Shown here: piece by piece, positions 32,372 to 40,428 of the stretch
How the letters are laid out: each line of letters begins with the position of its first letter
Position numbering within the stretch: the first letter of the stretch is position 1
Notes under the pieces: generated by a model
Seen by the model: the letters and a program-made list of their open reading frames with translations, nothing else
Databases searched by the model: none
Told to the model about the DNA's origin: nothing
Position numbers and translations under genes: made by a program
Assembly: GCA_037143175.1 (NCBI GenBank)
Contig: JBAWZF010000021.1
Span: forward strand, 1 to 45,361
Source: a bacterium
Lineage (GTDB): Bacteria > Verrucomicrobiota > Kiritimatiellia > CAIKKV01 > CAITUY01
Direction of reading: 5' to 3'
Length of the DNA stretch: 45,361 nt

Positions 32372-32797
32372 ATGTCAGGCAAATTGCACTCAATGAAAAC
32401 TCGAATGAAAAAACACTCATCATATGGTGAAGTTGCGCTTATTGCAGTCTCGAAGTCACGCGATGTTGATCCTGTAAAAGCTTGGACGGCTGCATCGAAG
32501 GCGTTCTTTTTAGGGAGGGCGGATGCAAGTCGGGACAAATGCTGTCCTCGGTGTGTGTTTTTCGGTTTGATCGACGCAAATATGATCACGGGGATTCCGC
32601 CAGGAAATCATACGAAATCCAAGATCAACAAGCATTACGCCGTAGAAGCCGTAAAACTGCTGAAGAAAGATTCATCTTTTCAGGATAGACCGATGGATTT
32701 GTGGCGAAAAGTCACTTCTTGTGAAAAAAAACATCATAACGGACAAATGCACGTAGTTTGCGCTTTATGGAAGATCGGGCGCATTTCGCACCGTTAA
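32372..32797 (+). CDS. DUF6979-like small protein
   Basis: A 141-residue protein. The sequence SYGEVALIAVSKSRDVDPVKAW, then CCPRCVFFGLIDANMITGIPPG and the INKHYAVEAVKLLKKDSSF helix follow the order I associate with the DUF6979 family, whose function is unknown; the assignment is from memory. Paired cysteines (CCPRC; later CEKKHH) could bind a metal. Starts ATG 32393 and 32405 are alternatives, and none has a good ribosome site. Its end extends over the ribosome-site region upstream of the next gene. With the preceding nuclease-like gene it may form a two-gene cassette. Confidence 0.55.
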   Translation: MSGKLHSMKTRMKKHSSYGEVALIAVSKSRDVDPVKAWTAASKAFFLGRADASRDKCCPRCVFFGLIDANMITGIPPGNHTKSKINKHYAVEAVKLLKKDSSFQDRPMDLWRKVTSCEKKHHNGQMHVVCALWKIGRISHR

Positions 32798-32838: not shown

Positions 32839-33600
32839 ATGAAAAAGTGCATGCTCGTGGGCGTCTTGGCTGGGATTGCTTTGCTTTGGTTGGCGGGAGA
32901 TGTGTGGGCACAAGTTGTGGTCACCAACTTTGTGGTAGCTCAACGAACGGGAACAAAACTGGTAGATATCTCGTACGATGTTAGCAGTTCTGCCACAAAT
33001 TTGGTTTATATAGTTGTGACAGTCAGCACTGCTGGCGTGCCAGTGAACGTGTCCAGTCTCTCGGGCGATATAGGTTTTGTTGCTACTGGGAATGCAAAAT
33101 CCATTATCTGGAATATGGGAGCGGATTGGAACGGGAATCTGGCAATGGTGTCGTTTTCACTTACCGCGCATGACAATATGCCTATTGGTGGTGACCCTAG
33201 GGCAATTGCTTGGGATGTCGTTGATGCGCGATGGGTGAAGAATATTTATTCGAATGGCGCAGTGACCATGAATGACCGCAATTCTGGTTTGATGTGGGTC
33301 TATGACGCCAGCACTAACGGCATAGGAACCTGGACTCAAGCAAATAACCTTTGCAATGCCTTAGTGTATGCGGGATACGACAACTGGTTTCTGCCCGACA
33401 AATACCAATTAGGCAATATGTATTTGCAGAATGCGTTTTTTGTTGGTGTGCAGTTGGGGTATTATTGGTCTTCTTCCCCAGGTTACACCAGCGGCTATAA
33501 GGTCTTAGTAAATATGGCCAATGGTGGCGAAGCCCAAAGTGTACCGGATGGTAATCCTGTATATAATAGTTATCCGATCTGGCCATGTCGTGGACAGTAA
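32839..33600 (+). CDS. Secreted protein with GTKLVDI module and DUF1566 domain
   Basis: A 253-residue secreted protein. Signal peptide to about residue 24 (LAGIALLWLAGDVWAQ). Residues about 27-112 form a beta module (VVAQRTGTKLVDISYDVSS; SGDIG; IIWNMGADWNGN) that also occurs three times in the giant protein downstream. Residues about 140-252 form a DUF1566 (Lcl C-terminal-like, C-type-lectin-like) domain: MNDRNSGLMWVYDAS, WTQANNLCNALVYAGYDNWF, LPDKYQLGNMY, YYWSSSPG. GGAG six bases before ATG 32839 fixes the start; the frame is open from 32758. It probably acts at the cell surface. Confidence 0.82.
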   Translation: MKKCMLVGVLAGIALLWLAGDVWAQVVVTNFVVAQRTGTKLVDISYDVSSSATNLVYIVVTVSTAGVPVNVSSLSGDIGFVATGNAKSIIWNMGADWNGNLAMVSFSLTAHDNMPIGGDPRAIAWDVVDARWVKNIYSNGAVTMNDRNSGLMWVYDASTNGIGTWTQANNLCNALVYAGYDNWFLPDKYQLGNMYLQNAFFVGVQLGYYWSSSPGYTSGYKVLVNMANGGEAQSVPDGNPVYNSYPIWPCRGQ

Positions 33601-33647
33601 GTAACGGCGGCGCTTTCATCTAAAGCCAATCTGTTAACAAAAAAATT

Positions 33648-36600
33648 ATGAATATTCAATTATGCGCCTGGTTGGTCTGGGTTTTATGTTGTTTGATGCC
33701 GATATTTTCATTGGCTTCTTCGCAAACAGTGACGGTTGCCGTTTTGATGGACTCTCGGAATTATACGCTTGCTGTATCATCAGTTCGCGGGTCGCCAGTT
33801 CCTTCGGCAGGGACGAATCTCTATGCTTGGCGTTCAGCGGTGACCTGCTCGGTTTCCTCCGTTGTCGTGTCTGGCATAAACTGGCGTTCAACAGGCTGGT
33901 CTGGAACAGGCTCGATTCCCTTATCAGGCACTACGAACACAACGGGTTTGGTTGTTCTATCCAATCTAGTGTCTTCGATTACTTGGAATTGGGCGAATTT
34001 GTTCGTGATTACGAATGTTTCTGCAGCCCAGCGTCAGGGCACAAAATTAGTGGATATTACCTACGATTTGATCAGTGATGCCTCCAATGCGGCACCAATC
34101 TCGCTAGTCGTGGCGAACAATGGAACCAACATATCGGCCATCACTTTTTCCGGGGCTATTGGTGCGGATGTTTTACCAGGAACCGGAAACGTGATCGTTT
34201 GGAATGCAGGGACTGATTGGAATGGTAGTATTGCAGAACTAAATTTTGCCGTGAGGCATACGTCCGTGACGCAATTGGTTTCGGCTGGTAGTGCTCTTGT
34301 TGACTCTCGGAATTATACGCTTGCTGTATCATCAGTTCGCGGGTCGCCAGTTCCTTCGGCAGGGACGAATCTCTATGCTTGGCGTTCAGCGGTGACCTGC
34401 TCGGTTTCCTCCGTTGTCGTGTCTGGCATAAACTGGCGTTCAACAGGCTGGTCTGGAACAGGCTCGATTCCCTTATCAGGCACTACGAACACAACGGGTT
34501 TGGTTGTTCTATCCAATCTAGTGTCTTCGATTACTTGGAATTGGGCGAATTTGTTCGTGATTACGAATGTTTCTGCAGCCCAGCGTCAGGGCACAAAATT
34601 AGTGGATATTACCTACGATTTGATCAGTGATGCCTCCAATGCGGCACCAATCTCGCTAGTCGTGGCGAACAATGGAACCAACATATCGGCCATCACTTTT
34701 TCCGGGGCTATTGGTGCGGATGTTTTACCAGGAACCGGAAACGTGATCGTTTGGAATGCAGGGACTGATTGGAATGGCAGTATTGCAGAACTAAATTTTG
34801 CCGTGAGGCATGCGTCCGTGACGCAATTGGTTTCCGTTTGTAAAACCTGGATAAATACATATGGATCGATAACGAACCTTGCGGCCGTTCAGCGACCTGG
34901 AACAAAGCTGGTGGACATTGTTTACGACATAATCAGTGCTGTTTCCAATGGTGCTCCAATTTCTCTTGTGGTGACATCTAATGGCGTCGCACTTCCAATC
35001 AACGTTGTTTCTGGGGCTATCGGCACGAATGTTACGCCCGGGATAGGCAAGTCACTCGTTTGGAATGCGGGAACCAACTGGAATGGGAATGCCGGGCAAT
35101 TGGGATTCATGGTGTATTATACAACAGCTCCACAATTCACATCTTCCAGCAGTTGTGGTGTAGATTCCCGGAATTATATCTTCTCGGTGAGTTCGATGCG
35201 AGGGTCACCTATACCTGCCGTCAATACATACTCAAACTTCAATTGGAAATCTACCGTTACGGCATCAGTTTCGTCCGTTGCTGGATACACTCCTATCGGT
35301 TGGTTAGGAACGGGATCGGTGCCGGCCACTGGATCAACCAACAATACTGGAATCATTGTTCTAACAAATCTTCTATCATCAATAAATTGGAACTGGATAA
35401 CCAACACATATGGGGTGACCTTCAATCCTCAGGGTGGTACCACGCCCGCGCCAACCTCAAAACTTGTGATCTACAACGAGCCCTACGGAAGTCTGCCAAG
35501 CATAACGCGTGAGTGGTACAATTTCGATGGTTGGTGGACCGCTCCATCAGCTGGCACCCTGGTGACCGCAGGAACAGTGGTTAGCGCTCCGATATTGTAT
35601 GGCTATAGTTATAGTGTTAACCCATCGGCGCTTTATCCGGACAGCTCCGGAAACAAGCTGACTGATGGCATGGCACTCGTTCCGGTTTGGGGGGGCTCGA
35701 TTGCTGCCGATGGGAATTCAACAGTAGGTTGGCAGAATGTTAATCCAAGCATCTCATTTGTTTTTACGGGAGCGGTAAATGTCTCAGAGATCAAGATTTG
35801 GGCGGCAGACAGCGACAATGCCTCAGGTGTTGGGCTGCCAACACAAATTACTGTTTCGACCCCTGTAGGTTACAGTAGAACCTTCTCTGTGACTAATCCG
35901 GCGGGAAGTGGTAGCACAGTTGAGCTTGCGTTGGGTGGCATTAATACGGTCAGTGACAGATTTAATATTTCGGCGACACGAGGTTCTGAATGGACAATGT
36001 TTTCGGAGATTGAACTACGAGGAACTCCCGAGTCGCAGTTTGAAGCTCATGAAGCATCCCTCTATGCTCACTGGACACTTGTCACACAGATGATCACTGG
36101 CGTCGTTGCTGGCGGCATAGAAAAGCCGGGGAAAATTCGGGTTGTGGCGATGCTTACCTCAACGGACTCTGATATGAAGTCCACCAACAATATGCAGTAC
36201 AGCACTATAGTGACGGGAGGTTGGTTTTCGATTCAAGGAGTTCCGGTCCTCTCGGACTACTGGGTGAGAGCTTTCATTGATTCAAACGATGACGGTGTCT
36301 GGAGCCCCACTGAGCCAATTGGATCCTATGCAGGCAATCCCATTCATCTAACCAATAATGTTGCTGGTGCTAATATCACAATGGGTTACGGGGACTGGGA
36401 TGGAGATGGAATACCTGATGATGAGGAAGCCTTTGTTCTGATGACAGATCCTAAAAATTCATCAAGCCCAATTCAGGTTGATGATGATGGGCCTAACGAC
36501 CCCGTTCCTGGAGATCCCGAAACAAGTGCCCCTTATGAAAATGGAACTCAATACCATCCCTATGATTCGATCCAGAAGGCAATCAATGTGGCGCCAAGTG

Positions 36601-39521
36601 GTTCCGTCATTGTGGTAATGGATGGGTCATATTCCGGGGTTGGCAATCAGGATATCACCACGAAGGGGAAACCCATAACCGTTCGTTCGAGGCATGGCTA
36701 TAACTCGGCAGTGATTGACGCGGCAAGCGTCAACAGTGGGTTTATCTGTGCCAGCAATGAGACCGCCCTGACGGTCATCAAAGGGTTTACCATTCACACA
36801 TGGGCATCATTCTTTGGGCAACCAGGCGTTCTGTGTAGAAAGGCAAGTCCGTCAATCGAGGATTGCAGGATATGGGATTGCGGGGTAGCTGGGATCTATT
36901 GCACCAACCAGGCGAACCCCATCATCCGTCGGACGATTATCGAGGCAAATGCAGGGGGCGTTGTCTGTTATGGCAGTTCGCCGACCTTGGACAGCTGTCT
37001 TATTCAGTCAAATTTCTCGGGCCGCGGAGCCGGAGTGTATATGGAAAACAATTCGAACCCGTATCTCGTGAATTCGCTTATCGTGAGAAACCGTAGCACC
37101 AACGATGGTGGCGGCCTCTACGTGGGCACGGGATGCAGTCCAACCGGTATTAATTGTACGGTGGCGTATAATGTTGCCACGAATCGTGGCAGTGCTCTGT
37201 CGACAGTAGGGGCTCCCTTGTTCAAGAATTTCATTGTTTGGGGTAATTCCGATGCTGCGTCCGATCCAATTGACCTTCAGGCGGCGGCAACGTTTACTTA
37301 CAGTTGCGTTCAGGAGTTTCACCCCGGAACCGGCAACATGACGACCGACCCCATGTTTGTAAGTGGTGTCGGTTATCAATTGCAGGCAAATTCACCCTGT
37401 ATCGACGCCGGAACCTCTGTCGGTGCTCCGGCTCTCGATTACGCGGGTCAAATAAGGCCTTTGGATGGAGATGGTAATGGGAATGCCGTTGTAGACATTG
37501 GCGCTTACGAACAGGCTGAGTACATATATGTCTGCACGAATGCGATGACTCACTATGTTTCGGCCAGTTCAATTTCGCCGCAAATTCCTTATACGAATTG
37601 GGCAACGGCCGCACAACGCATACAGAGTGCCGTTGATGTGGCGTACCCTGGCTCACTGATTATGGTCAGCAACGGCGTCTATGTATCAGGTGGGCGAGTG
37701 GCGCGTGGTTCTCTGACAAACCGCGTGGCTATCACCAAGACCATCACGGTACAAAGTGTTAGCGGCCCTGGAGCAACGATCATTCAGGGTTTAGGTCCGC
37801 ATGGTGATGCGGCAATACGCTGTGTGTATTTGGGGACCAACGCGGTCTTGTCTGGATTTACCCTCACGAACGGGGCAACCCGGGGATATAGTGGAGATCA
37901 TGCTTTGGAGCAGGCTGGTGGTGGGGCATGGTTGGAGCCGTCGGGTGTATTGACTAACTGCGTTATCATTGGGAATTCGGCAAATGATGATGGTGGCGGT
38001 GTGTCTGGAGGCACGCTTAATAATTGCGCGTTGATCGGCAATTCTGCCGGTTACAACTACAGTTCAGGAGGCGGCGCAATAAATTCCACAATGAACAATT
38101 GCACGCTGACAAGAAACTCGGCTTTTTCTGGTGGTGGCGCGGCGGGAAGTATTCTCAATAAATGCATATTGTCCAGCAATTCAGTTGAGCATCCGACAGG
38201 TCCTGGAGGCGGAGATTCATGGGGTGGTGGTGTTAAAGACTGCACGTTGTATAGCTGTCTGTTGACCGGCAATTCCTCAGGATATGCCGGTGGTGGTTCC
38301 GTGGGTGGTTCTCTGACCAACTGCACATTGATCGGGAACTCAGCAGGTGTTGGTGGAGGTGCATACGGAAGCACTCTGAACAACAGTATTGTCTATTTCA
38401 ATGTAGCACCATCCGCGCCGAACTATTCTGGCACCAGTCTTGACTATAGCTGCACTACTCCATTGCCAGCGGGGGCTGGGAATATTGCTGACGAACCTCT
38501 GTTTGTAAATCCGGGTTCTGGGAACTACAGGCTGCAAACGGGATCCTTCTGTATCAATGCTGGATCAAATCAGTCCTGGATGACTAGCTCAAAAGATTTG
38601 GGTGGCAATCCGCGTGTTTCCGTTGATGGCATTGTGGACATGGGGAGTTATGAGTATGTACCCGGGCTGCAGTACTCATTGACCATCTCAATGCCCCCCT
38701 ATGCTGGTGGTTTTCCGCAAGCCGGAACGCGACTTTTTGATGTTGGTGCTTCTGTAAATGTAGTTATTACCAATTCACCTGTCATTTTAGGCGGAACCAC
38801 CCAATTTGCCTGTAAGGGGTGGACAGGGACCGGTAGCGTTTCAGCAAGTGGAGCTACAACAAACGTCGGTACTATAACGATAACCAATCACACAACAGTG
38901 ACGTGGCTTTGGAGCACAAATTACTGGCTGCAAACGAGCGCGACAGGTAATGGGGCAGTTAACACCAATAACTCATGGCTCGCATCAGGTGCGAATATTG
39001 AATTGACCGCAACTCCTGAGAGTTACTTCACTTTCTGGACTTGGCAGGGCCAGACGAACGGCTGCACAATCGAGAGCAACAGGATAACAGTAATTATGAA
39101 CGCTTCCCGTGCGATTACGGCGGTTTTCAATGTGCAGCTAGTGACCAACAATGTCCCTAAGTGGTGGCTTGCTCAGTCTGGCCTCACGAACTTCAATGTG
39201 GACGCCATGCGGGATGTTGATAATGACGGAATGCTGACTTGGCAAGAATGGGTTGCGGGAAGTGATCCCACGAACATCAACTCCGTATTCCACTTCACAA
39301 GCGCTAATGGCACGTTTGGCCAAGGCATGATTGTCCGCTGGCCGAGCATCTCGAATCGGTTCTACAACCTCAGTCGGTCGACAAACCTGATGGTGGGCAC
39401 AAACGCATTCACTATTCTTCCCGGTGCCAGTAATATGCCAACTACGCCATCGCAGAACATATACACTGACGTGGTGCAGGGAGTCGGGCCGTATTTTTAC
39501 AGGATTGACGTTCGGGAATAA
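33648..39521 (+). CDS. Giant secreted beta-helix adhesin-like protein, 1957 residues
   Basis: Signal peptide (to about residue 24), then modules. Two nearly identical 184-residue units at 35-218 and 219-402, each an InlB-divergent-like part plus a GTKLVDI part. A third GTKLVDI part about 405-500 and a third InlB-like part about 505-585. A Listeria/Bacteroides-type repeat from 587 (FNPQGGTTPAPTSK, REWYNFDGWWTAPSAG) interrupted by a discoidin-like segment about 664-790 and resuming at SLYAHW near 801. A calcium-type DWDGDGIPDDEE near 916. Two right-handed beta-helix regions about 964-1287 and 1317-1670. InlB-like repeats 1674-1827. A C-terminal VPKWWLAQSG module with EF-hand-like DVDNDGMLTWQEW. 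No enzyme motif and no ribosome site before ATG. Confidence 0.88.
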   Translation: MNIQLCAWLVWVLCCLMPIFSLASSQTVTVAVLMDSRNYTLAVSSVRGSPVPSAGTNLYAWRSAVTCSVSSVVVSGINWRSTGWSGTGSIPLSGTTNTTGLVVLSNLVSSITWNWANLFVITNVSAAQRQGTKLVDITYDLISDASNAAPISLVVANNGTNISAITFSGAIGADVLPGTGNVIVWNAGTDWNGSIAELNFAVRHTSVTQLVSAGSALVDSRNYTLAVSSVRGSPVPSAGTNLYAWRSAVTCSVSSVVVSGINWRSTGWSGTGSIPLSGTTNTTGLVVLSNLVSSITWNWANLFVITNVSAAQRQGTKLVDITYDLISDASNAAPISLVVANNGTNISAITFSGAIGADVLPGTGNVIVWNAGTDWNGSIAELNFAVRHASVTQLVSVCKTWINTYGSITNLAAVQRPGTKLVDIVYDIISAVSNGAPISLVVTSNGVALPINVVSGAIGTNVTPGIGKSLVWNAGTNWNGNAGQLGFMVYYTTAPQFTSSSSCGVDSRNYIFSVSSMRGSPIPAVNTYSNFNWKSTVTASVSSVAGYTPIGWLGTGSVPATGSTNNTGIIVLTNLLSSINWNWITNTYGVTFNPQGGTTPAPTSKLVIYNEPYGSLPSITREWYNFDGWWTAPSAGTLVTAGTVVSAPILYGYSYSVNPSALYPDSSGNKLTDGMALVPVWGGSIAADGNSTVGWQNVNPSISFVFTGAVNVSEIKIWAADSDNASGVGLPTQITVSTPVGYSRTFSVTNPAGSGSTVELALGGINTVSDRFNISATRGSEWTMFSEIELRGTPESQFEAHEASLYAHWTLVTQMITGVVAGGIEKPGKIRVVAMLTSTDSDMKSTNNMQYSTIVTGGWFSIQGVPVLSDYWVRAFIDSNDDGVWSPTEPIGSYAGNPIHLTNNVAGANITMGYGDWDGDGIPDDEEAFVLMTDPKNSSSPIQVDDDGPNDPVPGDPETSAPYENGTQYHPYDSIQKAINVAPSGSVIVVMDGSYSGVGNQDITTKGKPITVRSRHGYNSAVIDAASVNSGFICASNETALTVIKGFTIHTWASFFGQPGVLCRKASPSIEDCRIWDCGVAGIYCTNQANPIIRRTIIEANAGGVVCYGSSPTLDSCLIQSNFSGRGAGVYMENNSNPYLVNSLIVRNRSTNDGGGLYVGTGCSPTGINCTVAYNVATNRGSALSTVGAPLFKNFIVWGNSDAASDPIDLQAAATFTYSCVQEFHPGTGNMTTDPMFVSGVGYQLQANSPCIDAGTSVGAPALDYAGQIRPLDGDGNGNAVVDIGAYEQAEYIYVCTNAMTHYVSASSISPQIPYTNWATAAQRIQSAVDVAYPGSLIMVSNGVYVSGGRVARGSLTNRVAITKTITVQSVSGPGATIIQGLGPHGDAAIRCVYLGTNAVLSGFTLTNGATRGYSGDHALEQAGGGAWLEPSGVLTNCVIIGNSANDDGGGVSGGTLNNCALIGNSAGYNYSSGGGAINSTMNNCTLTRNSAFSGGGAAGSILNKCILSSNSVEHPTGPGGGDSWGGGVKDCTLYSCLLTGNSSGYAGGGSVGGSLTNCTLIGNSAGVGGGAYGSTLNNSIVYFNVAPSAPNYSGTSLDYSCTTPLPAGAGNIADEPLFVNPGSGNYRLQTGSFCINAGSNQSWMTSSKDLGGNPRVSVDGIVDMGSYEYVPGLQYSLTISMPPYAGGFPQAGTRLFDVGASVNVVITNSPVILGGTTQFACKGWTGTGSVSASGATTNVGTITITNHTTVTWLWSTNYWLQTSATGNGAVNTNNSWLASGANIELTATPESYFTFWTWQGQTNGCTIESNRITVIMNASRAITAVFNVQLVTNNVPKWWLAQSGLTNFNVDAMRDVDNDGMLTWQEWVAGSDPTNINSVFHFTSANGTFGQGMIVRWPSISNRFYNLSRSTNLMVGTNAFTILPGASNMPTTPSQNIYTDVVQGVGPYFYRIDVRE
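33750..34853 (+). repeat. Near-perfect 552-bp tandem duplication
   Basis: Unit one begins at 33750 and unit two at 34302. By eye the first 533 bases of each differ at only two positions (GGTAGTATT/GGCAGTATT and CATACGTCC/CATGCGTCC); they diverge over the last 19 or so. The period of 184 codons keeps the frame, so the duplication is recent and in use. Confidence 0.93.
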
Positions 39522-39740: not shown

Positions 39741-40061
39741 ATGGTTCAGATGAGACAAATTCGTGATTGGAGCCGGTGTTTGGCGAAACAATTCAAGCCG
39801 GAACGTATTATATTGTTTGGTTCATACGCCTACGGAAAGCCGCGCGAGGATTCCGATGTGGATCTACTGGTGGTGCTCCGTCACGAATCCGTCGCCGCAA
39901 AAGCGGCATCCGATATCCGGATGGCGCTTCCGCATGATGTTTCTATCGATGTCATTGTTCGATCTCCTGAGAAATTCCGCGAGCGGTTGAAAATGAAAGA
40001 CTTTTTCATGCGGGATATTGCGGAGAAAGGGCTTGTGCTGTATGAAGCGCGAAGTCATTGA
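39741..40061 (+). CDS. MNT-domain nucleotidyltransferase (putative antitoxin)
   Basis: A 106-residue minimal nucleotidyltransferase. The hallmark GS-X10-DxD is complete: Gly27-Ser28 in LFGSYAYGK and Asp39-Val-Asp41 in DSDVDLLVVL, with a later Asp in SIDVIVRSPEKF as the third carboxylate. In MntA/HepT systems such proteins neutralise the HEPN partner by adding AMP. The next gene encodes a HEPN protein and overlaps this one by 20 bases, so the pair is a typical module. ATG 39750 is an alternative start. Confidence 0.9.
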   Translation: MVQMRQIRDWSRCLAKQFKPERIILFGSYAYGKPREDSDVDLLVVLRHESVAAKAASDIRMALPHDVSIDVIVRSPEKFRERLKMKDFFMRDIAEKGLVLYEARSH

Positions 40062-40428
40062 ATGGGTCGATAAAGCTGAGGGCGATTTCATAAGCGCCAA
40101 GCGGGAGTGCCGGGCACGCAAAATGCCGAATTTTGATGCCGCGTGTTTTCACGCTCAGCAATCTGCCGAGAAATATCTCAAAGCATATTTGCAGGAATTG
40201 AATATCCCCATACCGAAGACTCACGATCTCGTGCGCCTGCTCAGCGAAATCCCCCCAACTCCTGCGCTGGATGTCCTGCGCTCGGGAATGGCCACACTGA
40301 CCGCTTATGCCGTCGAATTTCGTTATCCAGGCGAATGTGCGTCTCAGGAAGTCGCGAAGGAAGCGATTACGTTGAGTGGCGCTGTTCGGGATGAACTTCG
40401 ACATTTGCTTTCCTTGTCTGTACGTTAA
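40042..40428 (+). CDS. HEPN-domain protein (COG2250-like), partner of the MNT protein
   Basis: A 128-residue all-helical HEPN protein from ATG 40042 (the frame is open from 40018). The core motif ACFHAQQSAEKYLKAYLQEL at about 35-54 is typical of COG2250, followed by KTHDLVRLLSEIP. I find no Arg-X4-6-His motif, the RNase signature of toxic HEPN proteins such as HepT, so ribonuclease activity is not supported by sequence; binding or regulatory roles remain possible. It overlaps the MNT gene by 20 bases, implying coupled translation. Its stop overlaps that of a truncated AraC gene on the other strand. Confidence 0.85.
   Translation: MKREVIEWVDKAEGDFISAKRECRARKMPNFDAACFHAQQSAEKYLKAYLQELNIPIPKTHDLVRLLSEIPPTPALDVLRSGMATLTAYAVEFRYPGECASQEVAKEAITLSGAVRDELRHLLSLSVR

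Follow-up and report, generated by a model that had tools for sequence, protein, structure and literature searches.

A module of about 90 amino acids that carries the motif GTKLVDI is, in the reading we favor as fairly probable, an Ig-like spacer of exported recognition proteins centered on the PVC bacteria, with the adjacent genes P1 and P2 forming a leader and stalk pair of such proteins in the window (the whole stretch of 45,361 nucleotides that was analyzed, from a Kiritimatiellota-type bacterium). The module family has no name in Pfam or NCBIfam, while the kind of system to which it belongs is already known. What the sequence-only reading of this DNA had missed is that the usual partner of the module is a C-type-lectin fold of the FGE type, which in some relatives is the target of a diversity-generating retroelement (DGR).

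Two neighboring genes and their shared module

P1 and P2 are consecutive on the + strand, with the start of P2 47 nt past the end of P1. Their predicted export and domain order, as read from the sequence, are as follows.

32839..33600, +, P1 gene, 253 aa, ATG at 32839 (open reading frame; signal peptide and module, followed by Lcl_C, the last by Pfam)
32839..32910, +, P1 putative signal peptide MKKCMLVGVLAGIALLWLAGDVWA (read by eye from the sequence)
32914..33174, +, P1 GTKLVDI module, leader subtype (profile match; tree)
33265..33534, +, P1 Lcl_C (PF07603) head (above cut-off; model matches 8q4e, Z 13.3)
33648..39521, +, P2 gene, 1957 aa, array and beta-helix protein (open reading frame; Pfam, NCBIfam)
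33750..34225, +, first copy of a 476-nt identical stretch in P2 (repeat comparison)
33756..33995, +, InlB-like unit 1 of P2 (local profile; model)
34002..34271, +, P2 module copy 1, array subtype (profile, model, tree)
34302..34777, +, second copy of the 476-nt identical stretch (repeat comparison)
34308..34547, +, InlB-like unit 2 of P2 (local profile)
34554..34823, +, P2 module copy 2 (profile, tree)
34866..35132, +, P2 module copy 3 (profile, tree)
35169..35396, +, InlB-like unit 3 of P2 (local profile)
35409..35582, +, P2 Flg_new / List_Bact repeat (Pfam, E 2.1e-8)
36744..37175, +, P2 right-handed beta-helix region (Pfam Beta_helix, E 2.7e-12)
37377..37514, +, P2 choice-of-anchor Q, the best of two stretches (NCBIfam, E 1.8e-19)
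38673..38912, +, InlB-like unit 4 of P2 (local profile)
38925..39131, +, P2 Flg_new_2, a divergent InlB B-repeat (Pfam, E 3.7e-9)
39144..39518, +, P2 C-terminal domain that recurs in the genome (genome comparison)

Upstream of P1, at 32372-32797, lies a gene for a DUF6979 protein (E 2e-33), and downstream of P2, at 39741-40428, are overlapping nucleotidyltransferase and HEPN genes, likely an MNT-HEPN toxin-antitoxin pair.

When the whole 3.3-Mb genome was searched with a profile, exactly four copies of the module turned up, one in P1 and three in P2, just as had been counted from the sequence alone; the E-values of 8e-41 to 1e-48 are inflated, since the search profile was built from those same four copies. 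The P2 modules are 41-42% identical to that of P1 over about 90 aa. All three P2 copies are present, but they are not three independent ones, as copies 1 and 2 sit in a tandem repeat with a period of 552 nt, of which 476 nt are identical, and so count as one event. This duplication is probably recent, although it may be an artefact of assembly. Among relatives the number of array units varies from 1 to 6. The rest of P2 has wider connections: it resembles the choice-of-anchor Q proteins (NF041518) in matching their domain in two stretches and differs from them in its N-terminal array of InlB-like units and modules, and a second choice-of-anchor Q protein bearing the module was found at L018. 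The genome has 12 further places where the C-terminal 125 aa of P2 recur, at identities of up to 61%, and this shared domain may serve in sorting or anchoring.

The earlier suspicion that the module belongs to no named family was borne out when 66 module sequences were compared with the family collections. There was no match in NCBIfam at E 0.01, and in Pfam only Cbm74 (best E 0.0012) and CBM13-like (0.0031) appeared, both below the cut-off wherever a cut-off was shown; a carbohydrate-binding identity along these lines was dropped, the similarity being weak. A sequence search of solved structures gave a best E of 0.0045, to a cellulase, which is not convincing, a literature search on the motif strings found no match, and Foldseek with the model of the module had no match under E 0.001.

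The fold was modeled with AlphaFold2 for one InlB-like unit plus a module, where the best model has a mean pLDDT of 87.6 and shows the module (residues 84-169, about 90 aa) as a seven-strand sandwich. The structure that matches it best is a Vpr peptidase domain (8jmw_A, 703-799; Z 8.6, 2.4 A over 88 residues), and many Ig constant domains come next with Z about 7. The module is thus like the Ig-like / E-set domains in its predicted sandwich and unlike them in that none of the Pfam Ig, Fn3, Big and PKD families exceeds its cut-off on it. With this modest match an Ig-like beta-sandwich is likely but not final, because three of the five models stay near 65 (the two good ones reach 87.6 and 85.4) and a Z under 8 is common.

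Carriers, subtypes and leader-array pairs

Within the phylum the module is present in 42 of 289 genomes. A species-wide scan, which relied on a GTKLVD-like pattern and is therefore biased to close forms, found 78 module loci, mostly in Verrucomicrobiota, Kiritimatiellota and Lentisphaerota, with single loci labeled Cloacimonetes, Poribacteria, Eisenbacteria and Bacillota. Among the carriers is L075, from the named type strain Pontiella sulfatireligans F21(T). Five genomes of the same genus as the window's lack the module, which is therefore dispensable. Eleven IMG/VR contigs (L171-L181) also encode the module with FGE-like domains; no template and variable repeats (TR/VR) were seen on them, and they are possibly host DNA in viral bins.

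That the module is joined to different partners held true well beyond the two genes from which it had been proposed. A profile and a tabulation of partners, the check put forward at the time, were carried out; of 108 carriers scanned, FGE-sulfatase was present in 89 and Lcl_C in 3, and local profiles supplied the architectures. The usual order is a signal peptide, the module and a C-terminal domain of C-type-lectin fold; some carriers have no lectin-fold partner, and part of these sequences are incomplete. FGE-sulfatase and Lcl_C heads are both C-type-lectin folds, and P1 is therefore the Lcl_C edition of the usual plan of module plus lectin-fold head.

P2 represents a second module subtype, which alternates with the InlB-like repeat. 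On the tree a supported clade (95/87) groups all P2 modules with the array modules of Pontiellaceae (L015, L016 and L017) and with L014, and it holds 11 of the 15 modules that are preceded by an InlB-like unit, plus two others. By path length the P1 module is closest to modules of leaders, namely the first module of L014 and, after it, those of L017, L081 and L015, in a placement that is not starred. A short leader followed by a long array gene is found again in L015 and L017 of Pontiellaceae and in L074, while in L014 both module types are fused in one protein of 2772 aa, and L083 combines the module, Lcl_C and InlB-like units in a single protein.

Carrier genes also tend to be neighbors. They lie within 5 kb of each other in 6 of the 14 genomes that have at least two of them, the window's genome included, when random placement predicts 0.17 genomes and reached at most 4 in 20,000 draws. 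Part of this clustering is tandem duplication of like genes, as at G205:C15, where five module-bearing genes of the same type are found within about 14 kb, and for this reason the evidence from the subtypes matters. The foremost alternative, to which we give a lesser though real chance, takes the clustering further and holds that domain shuffling and tandem gene duplication account for everything, with the module as exported Ig-like filler, one copy having seeded the other, and no joint function. The 552-nt duplication inside P2 shows that the locus does duplicate, paralogues of the same type cluster elsewhere (G205:C15, and the modules of L055 and L057, which form a tight clade on the tree; the two cases may overlap), and the module is missing from sister genomes, all of which speak for such an origin. 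The P1 and P2 modules are, however, of different subtypes, and these subtypes also pair in Pontiellaceae and co-occur in the L014 protein, so the pair is older than local copying.

The suggestion of a surface assembly or mix-and-match system stands in part: the carriers are linked by clustering, by the recurring leader and array pair and by the fusion protein, and the surface location is presumed. The same holds for the prospect, raised in the sequence-only reading, that the module would turn out to be a known fibronectin- or Ig-like domain in unlinked carriers, as the fold is predicted to be Ig-like but belongs to no described family, and its carriers are linked. A more elaborate version of the pair, which we consider unlikely, is a two-gene display in which InlB-like/Ig-like array proteins dock short leaders of Ig-like and lectin domains through contacts between modules, and DGRs diversify the leaders. 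If this docking were true, a cell could swap and hypermutate binding heads on a fixed stalk.

Lectin-fold heads and diversity-generating retroelements

The head of P1 belongs to Pfam Lcl_C/DUF1566 (PF07603), with 44.9-46.8 bits against a cut-off of 34.9 (E 1.7e-11). Its model (pLDDT 90) has as its best structural match the C-terminal domain of Legionella Lcl (8q4e; Z 13.3, 2.7 A over 114 residues), to which a profile comparison also links it (E 2.7e-8); a Bdellovibrio C-terminal domain, C-type lectins (Z 8-9.5) and InvE/invasin come next. A C-type-lectin-like fold is accordingly what the model predicts for this head, and the Lcl C-terminal domain has that fold (PMC11162425). In placing a C-type-lectin fold behind an Ig-like domain, P1 also bears a works-like resemblance to intimin and invasin. 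It is not a member of that group, as it has no N-terminal outer-membrane beta-barrel, for which the 253 aa, filled by the signal peptide, module and Lcl_C, leave no room.

The kinship with Lcl raises the alternative that P1 acts as Lcl does, forming an adhesin trimer in which a basic face of the Lcl_C head attaches to sulphated glycans and the module replaces the collagen stalk. Family and fold are indeed shared, and sulphated glycosaminoglycans and fucoidan are ligands of Lcl (PMC11162425). In P1, however, the profile alignment puts non-basic residues at the positions of Lcl Lys380, Lys385 and Lys391, the head is acidic (pI 4.9), and an Ig-like module stands in front of it with no collagen repeat. 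As the basic lysines that hold glycosaminoglycans are not conserved, the ligand of Lcl cannot be transferred to P1, and we regard this alternative as improbable.

The lectin-fold heads of other carriers lead to the DGRs. A scan for near-repeats whose mismatches sit at A of one copy found five loci beside a gene for module plus FGE domain, with mismatches at template A of 24/28 in L022, 18/18 in L058, 17/17 in L064, 20/20 in L081 and 19/19 in L090. In all five the variable region is the 3' end of the module and FGE gene, and an RVT_1 reverse transcriptase lies just 3' of the target. These are textbook DGRs. Instead of occupying a separate spacer, their templates overlap the reverse transcriptase frame in its 3' part. 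Among the roughly 50 carriers whose downstream sequence was long enough, only 5 had such an element in cis. The L081 DGR also has a remote target, in trans, in the leader of the L074 pair: this gene lies in the same genome and matches the L081 template with 16/16 mismatches at A. For the leader and long gene of L017 no template copies were found.

The window's own genome is different in this respect. The 3' end of P1 has no second or template copy in the window or the genome, and no DGR reverse transcriptase was found in this genome, which is about 95% complete; its sole RVT_1 match, an open frame of 573 aa at G000:C72 (L122:387-2105), is of UG19 (DRT) type and a candidate defense reverse transcriptase. 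The missing template copy and the UG19 type of the enzyme speak against a DGR in the window's own genome, so that P1 can be called a relative of DGR targets but no more.

Mtd and TvpA are familiar DGR variable proteins with a C-type-lectin fold. The carriers share with proteins of this kind an N-terminal part for export or display and a C-terminal lectin-fold domain, and some have the reverse transcriptase, the template repeat and the A-specific variable repeat. They differ in that the P1 and P2 pair has none of these three, and in an Ig-like N-terminal module without a family name. FGE-sulfatase and DUF1566 are the commonest annotated target domains of DGRs in human microbiomes (PMC4159848), and DGR targets that end in a lectin fold behind N-terminal parts of various kinds have been described (PMC8144416).

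In the one relative tested, L081, the FGE residue Cys336 aligns to a Ser within the stretch varied by the DGR, with Cys341 retained, and in a PDB comparison Treponema TvpA is about as close to the head as SUMF1, so that binding fits better than catalysis. The idea that exported sulphatases are the substrates of the carriers, which would be formylglycine-generating or related enzymes with the module as a docking domain for these sulphatases, draws on FGE-sulfatase as the dominant partner and on SUMF1 as a close PDB relative, but is very improbable in view of the Ser in L081, the similar score of TvpA and the lack of an FGE domain in P1 and P2.

Probable exported binders on a shared spacer

The Ig-like spacer reading would have the module, placed right after the signal peptide, hold out a C-terminal lectin-fold head, usually FGE-like and in P1 Lcl_C. 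The second subtype, by alternating with the InlB-like repeat, would build stalk arrays of variable length, and in P2 the array stands ahead of the beta-helices and of the C-terminal domain that is found in a dozen places across the genome. P1 and P2 are probably co-transcribed and probably work at the same surface, and in some relatives hypermutation by a DGR would rewrite the head; that it is a DGR target there points to the binding of changing ligands and not to formylglycine chemistry. We infer the surface location, the shared operon, the role as a stalk, the binding of ligands and any contact between P1 and P2.

A widespread unnamed domain of the PVC bacteria hereby gains a predicted fold and a context. 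An Ig-like spacer shared among carriers and tied to lectin heads that are rewritten by DGRs predicts adaptive binders among the exported proteins of Kiritimatiellota and Verrucomicrobiota. The recurring pair of leader and array lends itself to tests of how diversified heads may be mounted, and the carrier in Pontiella sulfatireligans F21(T) makes the module system itself open to testing.
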